The notes beneath the pieces are model-generated. The model was given only the letters and a program-made list of their open reading frames with translations. It ran no database searches and was not told the origin of the DNA. A program made the translations under genes and the position numbers. From Bacillus sp. CGMCC 1.16541 (GTDB lineage: Bacteria > Bacillota > Bacilli > Bacillales > Bacillaceae_H): a DNA stretch of 64,000 nucleotides. The stretch covers positions 1 to 64,000 of the forward strand of contig NZ_QFRU01000001.1 in assembly GCF_003184905.1 (NCBI RefSeq). The letters run 5' to 3'. Below, piece by piece: positions 33,855 to 42,327 of the stretch. Numbering within the stretch: position 1 is the first letter of the stretch; each line of letters begins with the position of its first letter.

Positions 33855-35468
33855 TTATAGTAATTCACGTTTTCTCTTCAACAACTCCGCATACTTGGCT
33901 TCTAGTTGCTCTTTCTCTCGCCCGCTCACAACAAGTGATAGCTTACTAATCGTCTCGGTTAACTCCATCTCCACTGCGAGTAACTGTGCTTCTTGTTGCT
34001 GCTTAGATTGGGATGCTTCTTTCGATTGATCAACCGCTCGTAACGTGGCTTTTTTGTTATCCATTTCAATAATATGAGTGGCTAATTCTTTCACAAAATA
34101 ACGGTCATGCGTCACAAATACAATCGTACCGGGATATGCCTTTAGCACTTCTTGCAGGGCTTCTTTTGTATGCAAATCCAAATAGTTAGTAGGCTCATCA
34201 AGAAGTAACACGTTATAATCTCCTAAAAACACTTTCGCTAACGCCGTTTTCACACGCTCTCCTCCGCTTAACATGCACACCTTTTTATGCACATCTTCTC
34301 GCTTAAACAAAAGCCGTGATAAAACCGTTCGAATAAATGTTTCGGTATAACGACTACTTTTCTGTACATTTTCTAAAATCGACTTTTCTTCATCGAGGTT
34401 TTTAAGCTGTTGATGAAAATAGCCCATTTTCGCTGGCTTCGCAACGGTGATGTTTTCATGACTTTGATGGATCATGTTCAACAATGTTGACTTTCCGACA
34501 CCATTTGGACCGATAATCGCCACTTTCGAACCTGGCTTAACGGACCCATTTAACTGTTCAAATAAAACGCGCTCACCGATTGTCGCTTCAACATGTTCAA
34601 ATGTCATGACTCGTTTACTGTAAATGTGGCGAAACGATTGTAAATCAAACACAATGTTTTCTTGTTCTTTCGGCTTTTCTTTTTTCTCAAGCTTTTCAAT
34701 TCGCGTTTCAATCGCTTTAACACCACGATCTAGCTTCGCTTTTTTTGTACCAACACTTCGTTTATGAAGTCTTGCCTCTGAATTTCCCATTCGACTCGGT
34801 GCTTTTTTCAACGATTTTGACTTTTCGCTCCGTTCAGAAGCAGCTTGTTCTAATCGCTGCTTTTCTTTTACATATTGCTCATACTCAAACAACTGTCGCT
34901 CTTTTACATGTTCTTTCTGCTCAACATAATCTCGGTAATTGCCTTCATACACGCGAAGTTCACCATCTTCTAGTTCCCAAATGGACGTGCATAGTTGCGT
35001 TAAAAACTGTTGATCATGCGAAATGATGAGAACCGCTCCTTTAAAAGCGGTTAACTCTCGCTCTAATTGCTCGATCCCTTGTACATCAAGATGACTCGTT
35101 GGCTCATCGGCTACAATCACATTTGCACCTGACGATAGCGCGGCTGCAATTTTTTGACGCGTCATTTCTCCGCCACTCCATGCATCATGCCCTTCTTTTG
35201 GCACATCCCACTTCGATTTCATTTTCCCCGTTACATGCTCTTTCTCTCCCACTTCTAGTTGCGGGATATAAGCTAATTGTCCAGCGACTTGAATCGTTCC
35301 GGTATCAGGTTGTACGTCACCCACTAACATGCGCAACAGCGTTGATTTTCCTTCACCATTTTTCCCAACAATCCCAATTCGCTCTCCGTTATATACGTTT
35401 AGTTGATTCACTTTCACAATAAGACGATCGCCATAACTTTTTTCAATTTTATTTACTTCTATCAACAT
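33855..35468 (-). CDS. ABC-F ribosome-protection ATPase (Msr/Vga/VmlR-like)
   Basis: A 537-residue protein with two ABC cassettes and no membrane part. Walker A sites: GKNGEGKST and GPNGVGKST; signatures: WSGGEM and LSGGER; Walker B: VIVADEPTSHLD and VLLLDEPTNYLD. The linker is long and basic (about 190-270), as in antibiotic-resistance ABC-F factors that displace drugs from the ribosome. An attenuator leader upstream (35469-35745) supports a drug-induced gene. The exact antibiotic group cannot be told. Confidence 0.9.
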   Translation of the reverse strand: MLIEVNKIEKSYGDRLIVKVNQLNVYNGERIGIVGKNGEGKSTLLRMLVGDVQPDTGTIQVAGQLAYIPQLEVGEKEHVTGKMKSKWDVPKEGHDAWSGGEMTRQKIAAALSSGANVIVADEPTSHLDVQGIEQLERELTAFKGAVLIISHDQQFLTQLCTSIWELEDGELRVYEGNYRDYVEQKEHVKERQLFEYEQYVKEKQRLEQAASERSEKSKSLKKAPSRMGNSEARLHKRSVGTKKAKLDRGVKAIETRIEKLEKKEKPKEQENIVFDLQSFRHIYSKRVMTFEHVEATIGERVLFEQLNGSVKPGSKVAIIGPNGVGKSTLLNMIHQSHENITVAKPAKMGYFHQQLKNLDEEKSILENVQKSSRYTETFIRTVLSRLLFKREDVHKKVCMLSGGERVKTALAKVFLGDYNVLLLDEPTNYLDLHTKEALQEVLKAYPGTIVFVTHDRYFVKELATHIIEMDNKKATLRAVDQSKEASQSKQQQEAQLLAVEMELTETISKLSLVVSGREKEQLEAKYAELLKRKRELL

Positions 35469-35497
35469 AAAAAAGCCTCCCTAGCTTTCTAGAGAGG
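35469..35497 (-). terminator. Leader terminator sequestering the ABC-F ribosome site
   Basis: CCTCTCTAG / CTAGGGAGG (loop AAAG) then TTTTTT, ending at the ATG. The 3' arm contains GGGAGG, the ribosome site, so the hairpin can block both transcription and translation. Confidence 0.8.
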
Positions 35498-35618
35498 ATG
35501 ACTGATGCTTTTTTAGGTGCTAAAAAGATGCCTAGGTCCATGAAAAGAGACCGAGGACATACGTATTCCGTTTAAAGAGAAAGCACTTAAAAATGAACAG
35601 ACGAATCCTATCTAGAAA
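35486..35618 (-). promoter_or_regulatory. Antiterminator pairing of the ABC-F leader
   Basis: TTTCTAGATAGGAT (35605-35618) is complementary to ATCCTCTCTAGAAA (35486-35499) at 13 of 14 positions. This pairing would open the terminator. The same upstream strand can instead pair with AATCCTAT next to the uORF, giving two exclusive states. Confidence 0.7.
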
Positions 35619-35666
35619 TCATTATTTTTAAACATTCAATTTAAAATAATGGTTATAAAAATAGGA

Positions 35667-35678
35667 TTAAAACTTCAT
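35667..35678 (-). CDS. Three-codon leader ORF (Met-Lys-Phe-stop) of the ABC-F gene
   Basis: ATG AAG TTT TAA, about 11 bases after GAAGGGAAAGG. Its stop codon overlaps the 5' arm (AATCCTAT, 35661-35668) of the leader hairpin. A ribosome stalled here by a drug would mask that arm. Very short uORFs are known in leaders of related ABC-F genes. Confidence 0.65.
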   Translation of the reverse strand: MKF

Positions 35679-35715
35679 TGGCTTAAGTACCTTTCCCTTC
35701 CTGTAAGATAATGTT

Positions 35716-35745
35716 AGTATATGTGAAACACATTCAGTTTGTCAA
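35716..35745 (-). promoter_or_regulatory. Promoter of the ABC-F gene
   Basis: TTGACA (35740-35745), 18-bp spacer, TATACT (35716-35721), placing the start near 35708 and giving a leader of about 240 bases. Confidence 0.75.
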
Positions 35746-35819: not shown

Positions 35820-36227
35820 GTGCCAGAAATGAAGACAAACAATTCTCATAAACAAAAAGGAGAAGACATTGAGACGGTACGACGCAGTTTAGAGAAGCGT
35901 GTAGAGCTAGCCGTTTGGATTCCAGCAGTAGGGCAAGCACTTGAAGCAACTTCTTTATCTCAATTGCTTACATTAGAAGATGAACGAGGACAAAACGAAC
36001 AAGATGTAGTAACAGGAGTATGGGTTCAAACCATTGGACAATTTATCGAAGCTATCGGAGTTTCGCAAGAATTATCCACTGATATACAAGCACTTATTTT
36101 TCAAGGTCAGCAACTAGCGATTACAGGTAACGCCCTCTCATCAGCAGGTGCGGCACTTGAAGCGATTGCTAGTAAACGCATTCTCATTGATGAAATTCAA
36201 AGCGGAACAACAAAATTTATCCCATAA
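35820..36227 (+). CDS. Internally repetitive small protein (DUF6944-like)
   Basis: A 135-residue protein starting at GTG, seven bases after GAGGTG. It has three related repeats of a glycine/alanine-rich helix: VGQALEATSLSQLL, IGQFIEAIGVSQEL and GNALSSAGAALEAIASK. This fits the repetitive DUF6944-type proteins of Bacillaceae, an identification made from memory. Role unknown. Shares a terminator with the convergent cydC gene. Confidence 0.6.
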   Translation: MPEMKTNNSHKQKGEDIETVRRSLEKRVELAVWIPAVGQALEATSLSQLLTLEDERGQNEQDVVTGVWVQTIGQFIEAIGVSQELSTDIQALIFQGQQLAITGNALSSAGAALEAIASKRILIDEIQSGTTKFIP

Positions 36228-36281: not shown

Positions 36282-37985
36282 TTAAAAGAGTACATTCTTC
36301 TCCACTTCTTTTAATCCGTAAAAATACCCTTTTCGTGCCATAAGCTCGTCAAATGAACCGACTTCGATGACTTTTCCTTCGTTCATCACAACGATTTGAT
36401 CCATTTGTTCAAGACCCGTTAAGCGATGACTCACTAAAATGAGTGTATCGTCTTTTGCTCGAGTGAACATTTCCTCATACACGTTACGTTCTGCTAACAC
36501 ATCGACTGAAGACGTTGGTTCATCGAGTAACCATAATGAACGTTGACGCAACAACGTACGCGCAATGGCAAGCTTTTGCTTTTCTCCACCTGATAAATTT
36601 TCTCCTTTTTCATACACAGCGTCATGTAATGCTTTGTTTAACCCAACGACTTTCAATGCGTTGTTCATCTCGTCATCTGTCGCATTTTCTTTCGCTAGTA
36701 ACAGATTATCGCGAATCGTGCCATAAAAGAAATGGTTTTCTTGCAGGACAACGTTGCTTCTTGCCCACAAACTTTCAGCGTTCACTTTCTTCATCGACAA
36801 ACCGTTTATCGTGATGTCTCCATCATTAACTGGATACATGTTCATCACAAGTTGTAATAGCGTTGACTTTCCTGAACCAGATGGACCGACAATGGCCGTT
36901 TTCGACCCAGCCGGAAATGAAACCGATACATCTTGAAGTGTAGGTCGTACCCCATCAAATGAAAATGACACACCTTTCACATCAATCGTCACAGACTCTC
37001 CTTCGATGTCAAGTAGCTTCTCCTCTTTTACAGGTGGATCGTTCACAACTGAAAACAAGCGTGCCGACGCCCTGCGACTGTCTTCAACGTATACAGGAAA
37101 AGCCGCCATTGGAATGGAAAATTCAAATACGTTTAACGAAATCATAACAAGCATCGCTAGATACAAACCATCTAAACGCCCAACGACTACCTCATACGCA
37201 CCAACCGCAAGTACAGCGCAACTAACAAGCATTGCAACTGCCATATTGAACGACTGTGTTTGATTCGCACGATTTTCTTTTTGGACTTGTTCCTCCACAT
37301 ACACATCGGATAATTGACGCAGCTTTTCTGCTTTTTCATCCAGTCGTCCATAAATCTTCAAATCGCGAAATCCATATAACAACTCCGTCACATCGGATGA
37401 CAGTATATTTCGGTTACTCTGCACGGAATCTTCCACTCGCTTTTGCTTCAAAGCGAAAAACAACGGCAAGATAAATCCCGTCACAAGCATCCCAATCAAC
37501 AACGTAAGGGCAATCGATACAGAGTAGAACGTTGTAACGAAAATGGTGCTTAAAAACACGAGCAAAAACACAACAGGTGGATAAAATACACGTAAAAAGA
37601 AGTTCTGCAAGCTTTCAACGTCACCCACAATTCTTGATAGCAAGTCACCACTTCGGTACTTGTGTAAAATACGTGGTGTTAACGGCTCTAGCTTTTCAAA
37701 AAAGGAAACGCGAATGTTTCCTAAAATCGTAAACGTTCCACGATGCGAAACTAGTCGTTCTCCGTAACGGCTAAGCGCTCGCGAAATTCCAATCAGCTTT
37801 AAAAGAGCCAGCATGACAGTCAACGTATAAAGTGGCGGTAAAAGAGCCGCTTTGGAAATCAGGTAGCCACTTGAAGCAAACAGCGCAACGCCAAGCACTC
37901 CTGCTAAAAAGCCAAATAAAGTGGTTAGCCAAATATCCTTTTTCTCACTCCACATTAAACGAACAATTTGTGCTAAATCCCTCAT
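36282..37985 (-). CDS. cydC: Thiol-reductant ABC exporter subunit CydC
   Basis: A 567-residue half-transporter: six membrane segments (to about residue 310), then an ATPase domain with Walker A GPSGSGKST, signature LSGGEKQKLA and Walker B LWLLDEPTSSVD. With CydD it exports cysteine/glutathione-type thiols and is needed to assemble cytochrome bd. The ATG overlaps the cydD stop by four bases, so the two are coupled. Last gene of the cyd operon. Confidence 0.92.
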   Translation of the reverse strand: MRDLAQIVRLMWSEKKDIWLTTLFGFLAGVLGVALFASSGYLISKAALLPPLYTLTVMLALLKLIGISRALSRYGERLVSHRGTFTILGNIRVSFFEKLEPLTPRILHKYRSGDLLSRIVGDVESLQNFFLRVFYPPVVFLLVFLSTIFVTTFYSVSIALTLLIGMLVTGFILPLFFALKQKRVEDSVQSNRNILSSDVTELLYGFRDLKIYGRLDEKAEKLRQLSDVYVEEQVQKENRANQTQSFNMAVAMLVSCAVLAVGAYEVVVGRLDGLYLAMLVMISLNVFEFSIPMAAFPVYVEDSRRASARLFSVVNDPPVKEEKLLDIEGESVTIDVKGVSFSFDGVRPTLQDVSVSFPAGSKTAIVGPSGSGKSTLLQLVMNMYPVNDGDITINGLSMKKVNAESLWARSNVVLQENHFFYGTIRDNLLLAKENATDDEMNNALKVVGLNKALHDAVYEKGENLSGGEKQKLAIARTLLRQRSLWLLDEPTSSVDVLAERNVYEEMFTRAKDDTLILVSHRLTGLEQMDQIVVMNEGKVIEVGSFDELMARKGYFYGLKEVEKNVLF

Positions 37986-39709
37986 TTTACCGCCTCCCCT
38001 CGATGTACTGTGACCATGTCTTTGTATGATTGGACTTGTTTCATTAATTCATCATGCGTGCCATTGGCAACCACTTCTCCGTCTTGAAGAAAATAAATCG
38101 TATCGGCATTACGAATCGTATGCAAGCGATGAGCAACTGTAACAACCGTTGCGCGCTTTCCTAGTTCGTTAATCGACGTTTGAAGCACTTGTTCCGTATA
38201 TAAATCAAGCCCTGTTGTTGGTTCGTCAAATAAAATAAACGTCGGCTTTTTCAAGAATGCGCGTGCTAATGCAAGACGTTGCTTCTCACCACCTGATAAC
38301 CCGCGGCCTCCTTCACCAATGACCGTTTCATAGCCAAACTGTAACGATTCAATCATTGACGAGAGCCCCGCTTGTTCCGCTGCTGCTTGAATCTCTTTAA
38401 GCGTTGCGTTCTCACGACTACCAATGGCAATGTTTTCTGCGATCGTCCCTGCAAAAATGTACGGATGTTGAGAGATATAACTAATTTGATCAAACCAGCT
38501 TTTCTCTTCGTAATGAGCACGTGATTTCCCATTTATGATTACGTCGCCTAATGATGGTTGCAATAAGCCAGCAAGCACATGAAGTAACGTCGTTTTCCCA
38601 GCTCCGTTCGGTCCGACAATCGCTACTTTTTCATACGGCTCAATCGTTGCATTCACCTTGTGTAATGAAAATGAAGCTTCGCCATACGTAAATGTCACAT
38701 CACGTAATTTCACTGTTAGCGGTACTGACTGTACATTGTTTTCGCCCCATTGAACGTTTGCTTCTTCTTTTTCAAGCTCTTCTATGACACTTTTCGCCGC
38801 ACCCATACTACCACGTCCAGCATGAAACGCACTTCCAAACTCTTTTAACGATAAATAAAAATCAGGTACTAAAATTAAAATGAAGAATGCTGAAAAAAAC
38901 GTGACGTTTTCAAAAATGACAATTTGCAATCCTAACTCAAATGCCACAAGACCGATACTAAGCATTGAAATAAATTCAAGCGACAATGCCGATAAAAAAG
39001 CGACCTTTAACACTTGCATCGTCGCATCTCGAAACCCAAAACTGCTTCGTGCAATTTCATTCTTTTGCTGACGCACACGGCCGAATAACTTTAACGTCAC
39101 AAGCCCTTGTAACACATCTAAAAAGTGACCAGAAAATGTCGCCATTTTCTCAAGCTGTTCTTCTGACTTTTGTTTCGTTTTCATTCCGACAAGTGCCATA
39201 AACAATGGAATGAATGGAGCTGTAATTAATAAAATCAACCCTGAATACACGTGCTGTGTAAACACAGCGATTACAATAAAGAGAGGAATAAACGTCGTCT
39301 GAATCATTTGTGGAATGTAGACACTAAAGTACGGATCCATCTCATCGACTGCATCCATCACCGTATTCACTTTTCGGCCTGTTTGTCCACTTAATGACGC
39401 TTGAATCGGATTGTGAGTCATCTTTTTAACAAGTGCCATGCGCATGTTCCGCTTAACTGTTGCCGCTAATGAAATACCTGCTTTTCGTCCTCCATACATC
39501 GCCAACACGCGTATAAAGGATACGACAAGCAAATAAACAATCGACGGCGTCACTTCTTCAAACGATGCATTTTTTAAAAAGACACCATCTACCACTTTGA
39601 CAAAGAAATACGCTTGGGCCACCATTGTTGAACCCGTTAACGCCGCGTATAACATGAGAAGTCGTATGCTCTTTTTCTGTTCAAACGCCATTTGCTTCAG
39701 TTGTTTCAT
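37982..39709 (-). CDS. cydD: Thiol-reductant ABC exporter subunit CydD
   Basis: A 575-residue half-transporter: membrane domain to about residue 320, then Walker A GPNGAGKTT, LSGGEKQRLA and FILFDEPTTGLD. The VxGxGGRGLSGGEK stretch (IGEGGRGLSGGEK) is typical of CydD. Partner of CydC. It lies 54 bp after the cydS-like gene, with an imperfect hairpin (AAAAGCGCTCG / CGAGCACTTTT, about 39731-39757) between them that may lower read-through from cydABS. Confidence 0.92.
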   Translation of the reverse strand: MKQLKQMAFEQKKSIRLLMLYAALTGSTMVAQAYFFVKVVDGVFLKNASFEEVTPSIVYLLVVSFIRVLAMYGGRKAGISLAATVKRNMRMALVKKMTHNPIQASLSGQTGRKVNTVMDAVDEMDPYFSVYIPQMIQTTFIPLFIVIAVFTQHVYSGLILLITAPFIPLFMALVGMKTKQKSEEQLEKMATFSGHFLDVLQGLVTLKLFGRVRQQKNEIARSSFGFRDATMQVLKVAFLSALSLEFISMLSIGLVAFELGLQIVIFENVTFFSAFFILILVPDFYLSLKEFGSAFHAGRGSMGAAKSVIEELEKEEANVQWGENNVQSVPLTVKLRDVTFTYGEASFSLHKVNATIEPYEKVAIVGPNGAGKTTLLHVLAGLLQPSLGDVIINGKSRAHYEEKSWFDQISYISQHPYIFAGTIAENIAIGSRENATLKEIQAAAEQAGLSSMIESLQFGYETVIGEGGRGLSGGEKQRLALARAFLKKPTFILFDEPTTGLDLYTEQVLQTSINELGKRATVVTVAHRLHTIRNADTIYFLQDGEVVANGTHDELMKQVQSYKDMVTVHRGEAVK

Positions 39710-39763
39710 CTTAATCCCCTCTTTTTAGTGAAAAAGCGCTCGCGTTACCGAGCACTTTTACGT

Positions 39764-39868
39764 TCATTTTTCATACGGGTTCTTTCCTTTAGCTCCCCAC
39801 ACAAACAGTCCAACTACTGTTAATACCAGAATAAGAACAGGAGCGACCATAATTAAAAATGTATCCAC
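39764..39868 (-). CDS. cydS: CydS-like small subunit of cytochrome bd oxidase
   Basis: Thirty-four residues from GTG 39868, six bases after GGAGGG, and 11 bp after cydB. One membrane helix; the N-terminus DTFLIMVAP closely resembles the Geobacillus CydS N-terminus (QTFLIMYAP), which packs beside CydA in the solved structure. The tail is GAKGKNPYEK. It would be missed by automatic calling because of its size and GTG start. Confidence 0.75.
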   Translation of the reverse strand: MDTFLIMVAPVLILVLTVVGLFVWGAKGKNPYEK

Positions 39869-39879
39869 TTCGTTCCCTC

Positions 39880-40893
39880 CTATCTCTTTCCTTCGACGTA
39901 TTCATTATCAAATAAAAACAAGCGTAGTAACAAATAAAGAGATGGTACTAATAACAGTAACCCTGCTATAAACGCAATGACGAGTGCTATTGCCATCGTT
40001 TCATTGGTAAAGCTATTGTAAATTGTTACATACGGATAAAGAACATACGGCAAATGAGCTGCTCCGTATCCAAAGAATGCTGTGGCGAACTGAAGCATCA
40101 CGAGAATAAACGACATCCCTAAATGTTTCTTTTTCCAAATGAGATACACCGCTCCAAGGAAAAAGAGGAATGATAAAACAAACAGCCACGATAAATCAAT
40201 CATTTTACTAAAATGATCATCGTTGTGACGACTCATCGCCACAAATACAAGAAAACTTGCGAGTATCGTTGGTCCACTCCAAAACAACGCATACGTTCGC
40301 AACAAATCGAATGCTCCTTTGTCTTTCGCTTTATGTGCATAAAACGTTAAGAAACATGCTGAAATGTAAAGCACACTTACAATCGCAAGGAGAACAACGG
40401 CCCAGGCATAAAAACTTGTAAACAAGTCACCGTAATTCAAGCTGACATTGTCGCCATTTACCGTAATGTAGCCTCCTTCAGAGATGGTTAACACAACCGA
40501 TAGCGACGCAGGAATAAGCAACCCTGTTGCACCGTATAAAAATTGATACCAACTGCTTTCTTTATGTCCATAATGATGAAACGCATAATACGAACCACGA
40601 AGTGCAATTAAAATAATGGCAATGCTACCTGGCACTAAAAGCGCCGTTCCGTAGTAGTACGCAAGTGATGGGAAGAATCCAACTAACCCAACGTAAAAGA
40701 AAATTAAAAATACGTTCGTGACTTCCCAAACAGGTGACAAGTAACGGTTAATCACTTTTTTCACAATCGGACCTCGACCAGTTAACGTCGTGTAATAGTT
40801 GAAAAAGCCAGCTCCAAAATCGATGGACGCTACGATGAGATAGCCGTATAAAAACGTCCATAATACGGTAATACCAAGCAATTCATAATTCAT
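39880..40893 (-). CDS. cydB: Cytochrome bd quinol oxidase subunit II
   Basis: A 337-residue membrane protein with about nine segments. The start (LLGITVLWTFLYGYLIVASIDFGAGFF, in part) holds the conserved ASIDFGAG region of CydB. It pairs with CydA to form the high-affinity, proton-motive quinol:O2 oxidoreductase. It starts 12 bp after the cydA stop. Confidence 0.93.
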   Translation of the reverse strand: MNYELLGITVLWTFLYGYLIVASIDFGAGFFNYYTTLTGRGPIVKKVINRYLSPVWEVTNVFLIFFYVGLVGFFPSLAYYYGTALLVPGSIAIILIALRGSYYAFHHYGHKESSWYQFLYGATGLLIPASLSVVLTISEGGYITVNGDNVSLNYGDLFTSFYAWAVVLLAIVSVLYISACFLTFYAHKAKDKGAFDLLRTYALFWSGPTILASFLVFVAMSRHNDDHFSKMIDLSWLFVLSFLFFLGAVYLIWKKKHLGMSFILVMLQFATAFFGYGAAHLPYVLYPYVTIYNSFTNETMAIALVIAFIAGLLLLVPSLYLLLRLFLFDNEYVEGKR

Positions 40894-40905
40894 GTAACGC
40901 CCCTC

Positions 40906-42237
40906 CTATTCAATCCCTCGTTTTTCTAATTCACGCTCAACTGGATTTTCCTTAAACGTACGACGCAGCACCACAACTGCTGATACCGCTAAAATGATGT
41001 AAAGAACAATAAACAAGTAAAGCATAAGATCAACGTGACTAGATGTTGTCGCACCTTCTGCCGTTGTCATGTAGCCACGTAAAATCCACGGTTGTCTTCC
41101 TTCTTCGGTAAAGAACCACCCTGCTTCAATCGCTAACATCGCAAGTGGACCACTGCTTACAATGAGCCATAAAAGCGGCTTGTTTAGCTCGTTCCATTTT
41201 TTACGCCATTTCATGACCACATAAATGAATGAAATAAGCGCAAGGAACATCCCAATCGCAACCATTAAATCAAACAAATAATGCACAATGAGCGGTGGCC
41301 ATTCTTCTTTCGGAAACTCTTCAAGACCAATCACTTCCGCATCTGGTGTACCGTGCGCAAGAATACTTAATGCATACGGAATTTCAAGCGCGTATTTCAC
41401 TTCATTGTTTTCATCTAAAATACCACCTAGAATCAGTGACGCTTCTTCGACTGTTTCAAAGTGCCATTCAGCTGCTGCTAGCTTTTCAGGTTGATATTTT
41501 GCAAGATACTTACCTGATAAATCTCCAATAAGTGCTGTACTGATTGCACAAACAAAGGCAACGACCATTGACAAGTGAAGCGCCTTTTTATGATACACAT
41601 GAGTACGACCACGTAAAATCATAAAGGCCGCAATAGCAGCGAGCACACAAGCGGATGTTAAATAAGCTGATGACAAGACGTGTGCCATTTTTGTTGGTGT
41701 CGCTGGGTTAAACATCGCCATAATAGGATTAATACCTGTCAACACACCATTTTCAAGGTTAAATCCAAGCGGTGCATTCATAAACCCATTCACCGTTGTA
41801 ATGAAAAATCCTGACATCGTCGCTCCTAATGCAACTGGAATTAACAATAATAAATGAATCATTTTGTTTTTAAAACGATCCCACGTGTACAAGTAAATCC
41901 CAAGGAAAATCGCTTCAAAGAAAAACGCAAACGTTTCTAAAAATAGTGGCAAACTAATCGTTTGACCCGCTACTTGCATAAAGTTTGGCCACAGTAAGCT
42001 CAATTGCAATGCAATCGCTGTTCCTGTTACGACTCCGACTGCTACGGTAATAATGTACCCACGCGCCCAACGTCTCGCTAGCAAGTGGTAATGTTCATCA
42101 TTTCGTCGAATCCCAATCCACTCTGCTAATGCGATAAGGAGCGGAACCCCTACTCCTAGCGTTGAGAAAATGGTATGAAATGCTAATGTTAACCCTGTTA
42201 AAATTCGACTATATAAGACCGGATCATACTCAAACAA
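40906..42237 (-). CDS. cydA: Cytochrome bd quinol oxidase subunit I
   Basis: A 443-residue membrane protein that carries haems b558, b595 and d. The start is TTG 42237, seven bases after AAAGGAGG; it gives the canonical FEYDPVLYSRILTGLTLAFH with haem ligand His21. The open frame continues 26 codons upstream but that part is not CydA-like. GRQPWILRGYMTT is present, and the quinol loop is of the short Firmicute type. Two Rex-like sites lie upstream, so induction under high NADH/low oxygen is expected. Confidence 0.93.
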   Translation of the reverse strand: MFEYDPVLYSRILTGLTLAFHTIFSTLGVGVPLLIALAEWIGIRRNDEHYHLLARRWARGYIITVAVGVVTGTAIALQLSLLWPNFMQVAGQTISLPLFLETFAFFFEAIFLGIYLYTWDRFKNKMIHLLLLIPVALGATMSGFFITTVNGFMNAPLGFNLENGVLTGINPIMAMFNPATPTKMAHVLSSAYLTSACVLAAIAAFMILRGRTHVYHKKALHLSMVVAFVCAISTALIGDLSGKYLAKYQPEKLAAAEWHFETVEEASLILGGILDENNEVKYALEIPYALSILAHGTPDAEVIGLEEFPKEEWPPLIVHYLFDLMVAIGMFLALISFIYVVMKWRKKWNELNKPLLWLIVSSGPLAMLAIEAGWFFTEEGRQPWILRGYMTTAEGATTSSHVDLMLYLFIVLYIILAVSAVVVLRRTFKENPVERELEKRGIE

Positions 42238-42327
42238 GGCGATTCCTCCTTTACATTTATGTAGCTCTCCTAGATACACTTCTTCCTTTGATTTCCACTC
42301 TTTCTTTTTGTTCAAACGTTTGTTAGT

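Follow-up and report, generated by a model that had tools for sequence, protein, structure and literature searches.

The rli53 leader of Listeria monocytogenes, at one time proposed as a riboswitch, has been described as a lincomycin-responsive attenuator of lmo0919 (vgaL) in which an open reading frame of three amino acids is translated (PMC8079631). In the vmlR leader of Bacillus subtilis, a three-codon uORF (MIN) stands with an anti-antiterminator, an antiterminator and a terminator; mutants of the start codon and of the SD are reported to lose induction, a toeprint maps 16 nt from the first base of the ATG, and the uORF SD site was confirmed through the toeprint of an SD mutant (PMC9226507). 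The uORF variants MDN and MDK are reported to be at least as good as MIN while MRK induces less, and the authors reason that lincosamides and pleuromutilins would stall the uORF and that macrolides would not (PMC9226507). Other reported uORFs encode MRI (cplR), MK[L/Q] (vmlR2) and MAGN (lsaA), and for cplR the translational layer alone is described as enough to suppress expression when antibiotic is absent (PMC10201436). Rfam lists rli53 (RF01481) as Cis-reg and ncr1575 (RF02452), presumably the vmlR leader, as 'Gene; sRNA', with a clan shown for neither.

The window analysed here is a stretch of 64,000 nucleotides from Bacillus sp. CGMCC 1.16541 (contig NZ_QFRU01000001.1, positions 1 to 64,000), in which a complete leader lies on the minus strand directly before an ABC-F gene (Table 1). 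A preliminary description had named a promoter, an MKF-stop uORF, an arm over its stop codon and a partner arm; all are present at the places given, as are the 13-of-14 antiterminator pairing (eight pairs, one mismatch, five pairs) and the ribosome site within the 3' arm of the terminator. The promoter alone is weak evidence, since a scan of 2.8 kb gave one site against a mean of 5.6 in shuffles, which is not significant; among 210 leaders of the family described below, matches of at least 9/12 within 85 nt upstream occurred in 91, where mononucleotide shuffles predict 26.5; these matches end at a median of 40 nt ahead of the uORF.

Table 1. Features of the leader and of the gene behind it in the window.
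Feature	Positions	Strand	Basis or detail
Complete leader, 277 nt	35469..35745	-	
Sigma-A type promoter: -35 TTGACA 35745-35740, 18-nt spacer, -10 TATACT 35721-35716	35716..35745	-	11/12 consensus matches
uORF ribosome site, purine-rich, GGAAGGGAAAGG	35690..35701	-	11 nt ahead of uORF ATG
Outer helix 5' strand, TACTTAAG..AATGAA, over uORF start codon	35674..35689	-	MFE, extended upstream to 35700; native versus swapped partners
uORF ATG AAG TTT TAA (MKF-stop)	35667..35678	-	sequence; 202/211 relatives' uORFs also three codons
Anti-antiterminator arm 1, AATCCTAT, overlaps uORF stop codon	35661..35668	-	fold; covariation in 53 leaders
Arm 1 partner, ATAGGATT	35604..35611	-	
Arm 2, TTTCTAGATAGGATT: partner is arm 1 (repressed) or terminator 5' arm (induced)	35604..35618	-	folds
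TTCATTTTTAAGTGCT: outer helix 3' strand (repressed), second antiterminator helix 5' strand (induced)	35582..35597	-	folds; native versus swapped partners
AGCACCTAAAAAAG: second antiterminator helix 3' strand	35508..35521	-	masked fold; native versus swapped partners
ATCCTCTCTAGAAA: first antiterminator helix 3' strand, overlaps terminator 5' arm	35486..35499	-	13/14 pairs
Intrinsic terminator	35469..35497	-	9-bp stem 35497-35476, -12.6 kcal/mol; U tract 35474-35469
ABC-F ribosome site AGGGAGG, in terminator 3' arm	35476..35482	-	7 nt ahead of ATG 35468
ARE-type ABC-F ribosomal protection gene (predicted), Vga/CplR-like	33855..35468	-	537 aa

The rli53 leader aligns end to end with that of the window, uORF, arms and outer helix included, and differs in the apical loop. 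In both, the uORF stop overlaps AAUCC, the outer helix lies over the start region and an ABC-F gene follows, and the rli53 consensus uORF, read off the consensus line as AUG AAA UUC UAA, likewise encodes MKF-stop. The vmlR leader shares the three-codon uORF (MIN also in the ncr1575 consensus, as read) and the three alternative structures, but is described with separate terminator (SL-3) and SD-hiding hairpin (SL-4), whereas one stem does both in the window. The described cplR leader of Clostridioides difficile, with its MRI uORF, resembles the window in that the terminator stem contains the ribosome site of the gene, a likeness of description rather than of directly compared sequences, to a host of another class of bacteria. 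An Rfam scan of the window at gathering threshold gave no match: rli53 scored 38.7 bits (35704-35545, E 2.2e-6; gathering score 70) and ncr1575 22.5 bits (gathering score 60), and four other families in a permissive scan were unrelated and taken as chance. Because rli53 aligns and the vmlR and cplR logic is published, the window leader is, judged by its sequence, another case of the known rli53/vmlR kind. Its layout is not new; the earlier impression that this exact layout was freshly readable here does not hold, MKF-stop being already in the rli53 consensus and the mechanism published for lmo0919, vmlR and cplR (PMC8079631, PMC9226507, PMC10201436).

Structure modelling, which had been proposed as a check, gave the leader an MFE of -67.1 kcal/mol against -45.6 +/- 3.9 for shuffles (0/200 as good, z -5.5) and bore out the predicted terminator. 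The repressed fold exceeds the AATCCTAT pair in that TTCATTTTTAAGTGC forms an outer helix with the region of the uORF SD and ATG; under a mask over the uORF start, the TTCATTTTTAAGTGC segment pairs instead with AGCACCTAAAAAAG ahead of the terminator, forming a second antiterminator helix. Both helices were overlooked in the preliminary description, as was the reach of the family past ABC-F genes. The mask was a 30-nt block standing for a ribosome at -14 to +15 relative to the uORF ATG, and folding was at equilibrium, which leaves out co-transcriptional timing. Terminator probability was 0.99 unmasked and 0.09-0.13 under this mask (two runs), with the terminator 5' arm pairing upstream at 0.77-0.80. 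Shifting the mask by 10 nt in either direction left the terminator at 0.99 or above, and at the other positions tried from -34 to +175 it stayed at 0.96 or above, masks over the terminator abolishing it trivially. With the gene start included, the change was smaller and in the same direction, masking weakening the terminator from 0.94 to 0.30 and raising the openness of the ribosome site from 0.00 to 0.50. The leader is thus predicted to hold a mutually exclusive anti-antiterminator, antiterminator and terminator.

Relatives were collected with two models. Model R1, from 18 leaders (17 reached via ABC-F protein, the eighteenth, L041, preceding a frame read as ABC-F), matched 209/397 genomes of the order, 69/398 of the class and 10/10 of the genus at E 0.001, model-source genomes included. 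RF01481 at E 0.01 matched 3/150 order genomes, the window's own among them and none over the cut-off, L040 being set aside because it reads like coding sequence; RF02452 matched 64/150, 33 of them over the cut-off, and among 14 control genomes B. subtilis alone. No Rfam gathering score was reached at 20 loci (the window leader and other classes), and that of RF02452 was reached at 4 of 12 further loci. RF01481 and RF02452 (loci concerned: L103, L076, L278 and L080) seem to represent clades within a single leader element, with the clade of the window leader falling under both gathering scores, and the sensor family is wider than these two unlinked entries.

Of 187 R1 loci examined (61 from searches, 126 by coordinates), 150 had an ABC-F frame by BLASTP, two more had one read stop to stop (L197, L227) and one a listed frame (L084), while 31 had another gene and three none or a remnant; these proportions are no census, because the loci are a part of the matches listed and the order search gave the best matches only. 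R1, the model that found the 31 loci with another gene, was trained exclusively on ABC-F leaders. Model R2, from 53 leaders of all gene classes, matched 30/39 genomes of one family, 7/11 of another and 9/398 of the phylum; at an Acetoanaerobium (Clostridia) ABC-F locus its match was weak, 21 bits with the core skipped. Removal of duplicates reduced 236 loci from the two models, again not a census, to 215 in 184 genomes. Classed by BLASTP against one reference each, an assignment that does not establish intactness per locus, these precede ABC-F genes (158), other genes (52) and no gene or a remnant (5). Two of the loci counted as having no gene are L243, with an AraC-like frame as read, and L240, with a broken frame like the start of a Tet-like MFS gene. 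Leaders L159, L167 and L176 are 86-97% like ABC-F leaders over 105-241 nt but are followed by no gene, or by just a short ABC-F remnant.

The helices are supported across these relatives. Twenty-seven leaders were assembled and four near-identical ones dropped, leaving 23 for swap tests, in which the stems of L021, L022 and L030 were set by hand because the automatic terminator finder had picked wrong ones. For the first antiterminator helix, native partners averaged -18.3 against -12.9 kcal/mol for swapped ones, with 0/20000 permutations as good, L022 remaining weak (z -1.9); the outer helix and the second antiterminator helix also beat swapped partners, at 0/20000 each. We caution that a control pair reached 165/20000 in the same kind of test, so relatedness inflates these numbers. 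In the core helix of 53 leaders, the window's included, 95.2% of cells were paired and 5/11 pairs had two-sided changes (0/500 shuffles as high); with the partner slid by -1 there were still 4 pairs with two-sided changes, but 55.2% of cells paired. A MAFFT alignment of 18 leaders (A1) gave just 7 pairs and weak covariation, and the wider A3 gave 11 pairs.

A terminator could be placed in 205 of the 211 leaders, and in 65 of these 205 upstream pairing rose by more than 0.3 under the start-codon mask; as the mask was shifted, this gain was seen in none of the 205 from -40 to -20, in 2 at -10, 57 at +10, 49 at +20, 25 at +30, 2 at +45 and 1 at +60, which marks the uORF and the first downstream arm as the control point of the family. 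A looser criterion in an earlier run gave a gain above 0.1 in 121/205 and the reverse direction in 2. The exact mask register is sharp in some leaders, including the window's, but not family-wide, and many leaders change little at equilibrium. One relative, L141, has an extra copy of arm 2 (TTTCTGAATAGGATTAGTAATG) between hairpin and terminator, about 180 nt past the leader start.

We consider it highly probable that the window leader is a ribosome-controlled transcription attenuator with a layer of translation attenuation, of the rli53 (lmo0919)/vmlR type; homology to the proven rli53 leader and the mask computation both support the stalled-ribosome antitermination that had been suggested for it. 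Starting from the observed parts, their conservation, their pair support and the effect of the start mask, we infer the drug, the stalling and the termination switch in vivo as follows. Without drug, ribosomes would quickly initiate and complete the uORF, the anti-antiterminator (arm 1 with arm 2) and the outer helix over the uORF start would form and then the terminator, and transcription would end just ahead of the ABC-F gene; read-through mRNA would have its ribosome site locked inside the terminator stem. A blocker of the first peptide bond (lincosamide, streptogramin A or pleuromutilin) would halt the ribosome at the uORF start, where it would cover about -14 to +15 and block arm 1 and the outer helix at once. 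The freed arm 2 and the TTCATTTTTAAGTGCT segment would pair with sequences ahead of and within the terminator 5' arm and, because of this pairing, the terminator would be prevented and transcription would continue, with the ABC-F ribosome site opened at least partly. These three drug classes are retained from the inducers first proposed, among which macrolides are the least likely by the reasoning of the vmlR authors (PMC9226507).

An alternative interpretation is that the stem at 35497-35476 mainly hides the ribosome site, with termination a minor matter. The position of AGGGAGG in the 3' arm and the opening of the ribosome site under the mask (0.00 to 0.50) are consistent with such control, for which the sufficiency of the cplR translational layer without antibiotic offers a precedent (PMC10201436), but we consider it unlikely because a C and six T follow the stem, a stem with a T tract can be placed in 205/211 relatives, and in 10/27 leaders 36-67 nt separate the terminator from the protein match, which leaves room in those 10 for the ribosome site to lie outside the stem.

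Within the attenuator we favour, what the uORF contributes can be read from its variation. It was located in 211/215 loci, the misses being two at contig edges, L245 (stop lost) and L268 (offset), and an SD-like 4-mer lay within 30 nt of it in 210/211 relatives (median spacing 15 nt). Exactly three codons were present in 202/211 and a TAA stop in 208/211; in L211 the usual stop is lost. The 202 three-codon uORFs encode 33 distinct tripeptides, most often MIN (33), MWN (26), MKN (19), MDN (18) and MIY (18), with MKF in 6. Arm 1 starts 10 nt past the A of the ATG in 193/211, most of the other 18 differing by a base insertion or substitution within the arm, and in L052, L056 and L064, where the stop comes one codon earlier, the 10-nt distance is kept. 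Across the sequences compared, the conserved feature is this distance between ATG and arm 1, not the peptide, and we read it as a ruler by which a ribosome halted at the start codon would reach arm 1 regardless of what is encoded; the three-codon length and the free peptide point to such a start-codon ruler as the sensing principle. Stalling during elongation in which the MKF peptide itself does the sensing, on the pattern of macrolide leaders that carry RLR-type motifs, would fit the MKF common to the window and the rli53 consensus, the weaker MRK variant of vmlR (PMC9226507) and the description of uORF(MIN) identity as crucial there (PMC10201436), but the 33 tripeptides at the same place, the performance of MDN and MDK in vmlR (PMC9226507) and the relatives that shift the stop and keep the distance make it quite improbable. 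That the leader is a riboswitch binding a ligand, or a small RNA in its own right, as the Rfam type of the related ncr1575 and the former proposal for rli53 (PMC8079631) might suggest, is scarcely credible given that the relatives conserve the SD, the start and stop codons and their spacing and that 210/215 loci have a recognisable same-strand gene downstream (the Vat frame of L211 being broken).

The leader also precedes genes of other kinds. The 52 non-ABC-F genes comprise Mef-like MFS (TIGR00900 type; 33), Vat (5), Vgb (4), LmrB-like MFS (3), SDR (2), Tet-like MFS (2), Lnu(G) (1), alpha/beta hydrolase (1) and RibD-like (1). Mef-like MFS is the second commonest leader gene (33/215; for example L154, L158, L160, L168, L172, L178 and L284), with many in one bacterial family of large genomes, and we caution against counting the 33 loci as independent because several MFS leaders are >95% alike. 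Ten representatives of downstream genes were run against NCBIfam, where Lnu(G) (621.9 against 525) and Vat (351 against 300) exceeded their cut-offs and Vgb(B) (396 bits; cut-off 600), LmrB (487; 800), Mef-like MFS (152 with TIGR00900; 319.6) and Tet-like MFS (194; 475) fell under theirs; the SDR representative was a general SDR, under the cut-offs shown. On these scores we treat the MFS and SDR genes as candidates, not as known resistance genes. The two SDR oxidoreductases lie directly after leaders L171 and L225 (uORFs MKF and MIH) and are just 25% identical to each other. As resistance candidates, the alpha/beta hydrolase of L209, named PHA depolymerase by NCBIfam and with the in silico switch reversed, was rejected, and the RibD-like gene of L220 was judged weak.

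Two leader pairs bear on exchange between gene kinds. Leader L076, ahead of Lnu(G), shares 75.8% identity across 273 nt with L174, an ABC-F leader; L058, ahead of an LmrB-like gene, shares 77.4% across 257 nt with L052, also an ABC-F leader, and each of these is the best match of any class. The likeness of L058 continues through the terminator and reaches the ATG at which the ABC-F gene would start. In named records, the leader stands ahead of lnu(G) (E. faecalis pE006-101), vat (Paenibacillus cellulositrophicus) and an MFS gene (P. megaterium QM B1551 pBM500). The lnu(G) leaders L076:1407-1629 (-) and L278:1240-1462 have the uORF MKN and score >139 bits with RF02452. The E. coli plasmid lnu(G) (L285) matches the Enterococcus copy (L278) at 99.3% identity, but this likeness sets in only some 53 nt ahead of the gene, and R2 gave no match in the stretch examined of that plasmid record, nor upstream of E. 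faecalis vgb(A)-vat(A), E. faecium vat(D) and the P. megaterium pBMG1 vgb-vat operon; the leader is therefore not universal for vat, vgb and lnu(G) genes. Among the literature matches listed, no title or abstract opening places such a leader before vat, vgb, lnu or MFS genes.

Taken alone, the element in the window is one more case of a proven mechanism and ordinary for its kind; the view of the family matters more. On balance we favour the reading that rli53, ncr1575/vmlR and hundreds of unlisted leaders form one portable drug-sensing RNA family, swapped between unrelated resistance genes, which would sense any first-peptide-bond blocker through the fixed distance from start codon to hairpin and would mark the Mef-like MFS, LmrB-like and Tet-like pumps and the two SDRs as probable new lincosamide, streptogramin A or pleuromutilin resistance genes. 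One sensor RNA fronts target-protection factors, drug-modifying enzymes (Vat, Vgb, Lnu(G)) and efflux pumps, and since it stands before several gene kinds, searching for this leader turns up candidate resistance genes with no need to know the protein family beforehand.

The ABC-F protein of the window exceeds the NCBIfam cut-off for ribo_prot_ABC_F (NF000355; 502.9 bits against 380); its best-scoring model is Vga (NF000170), at 570.3 bits yet under the curated cut-off of 725, and CplR, at 544 bits, is also under cut-off. Among its best-matching solved structures it lies nearer 7nhl (406 bits), a lincosamide-streptogramin A resistance protein, than Lmo0919 (7nhn, 336 bits), the others being 5zlu (352 bits), which carries the name macrolide efflux protein, and 6ha8 ExpZ/VmlR (246 bits). 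A contig scan gave a single named relative, Metabacillus iocasae, at 80% identity. Beside the leader, a small divergent gene (35820-36227, +) has a weak match to DUF6944 (36.1 bits, cut-off 32). The same-strand upstream neighbours (36282-42315, -) resemble cydC, cydD and cytochrome bd oxidase genes, and cydC (36282-37985), the sole upstream neighbour run against NCBIfam, is over its cut-off.
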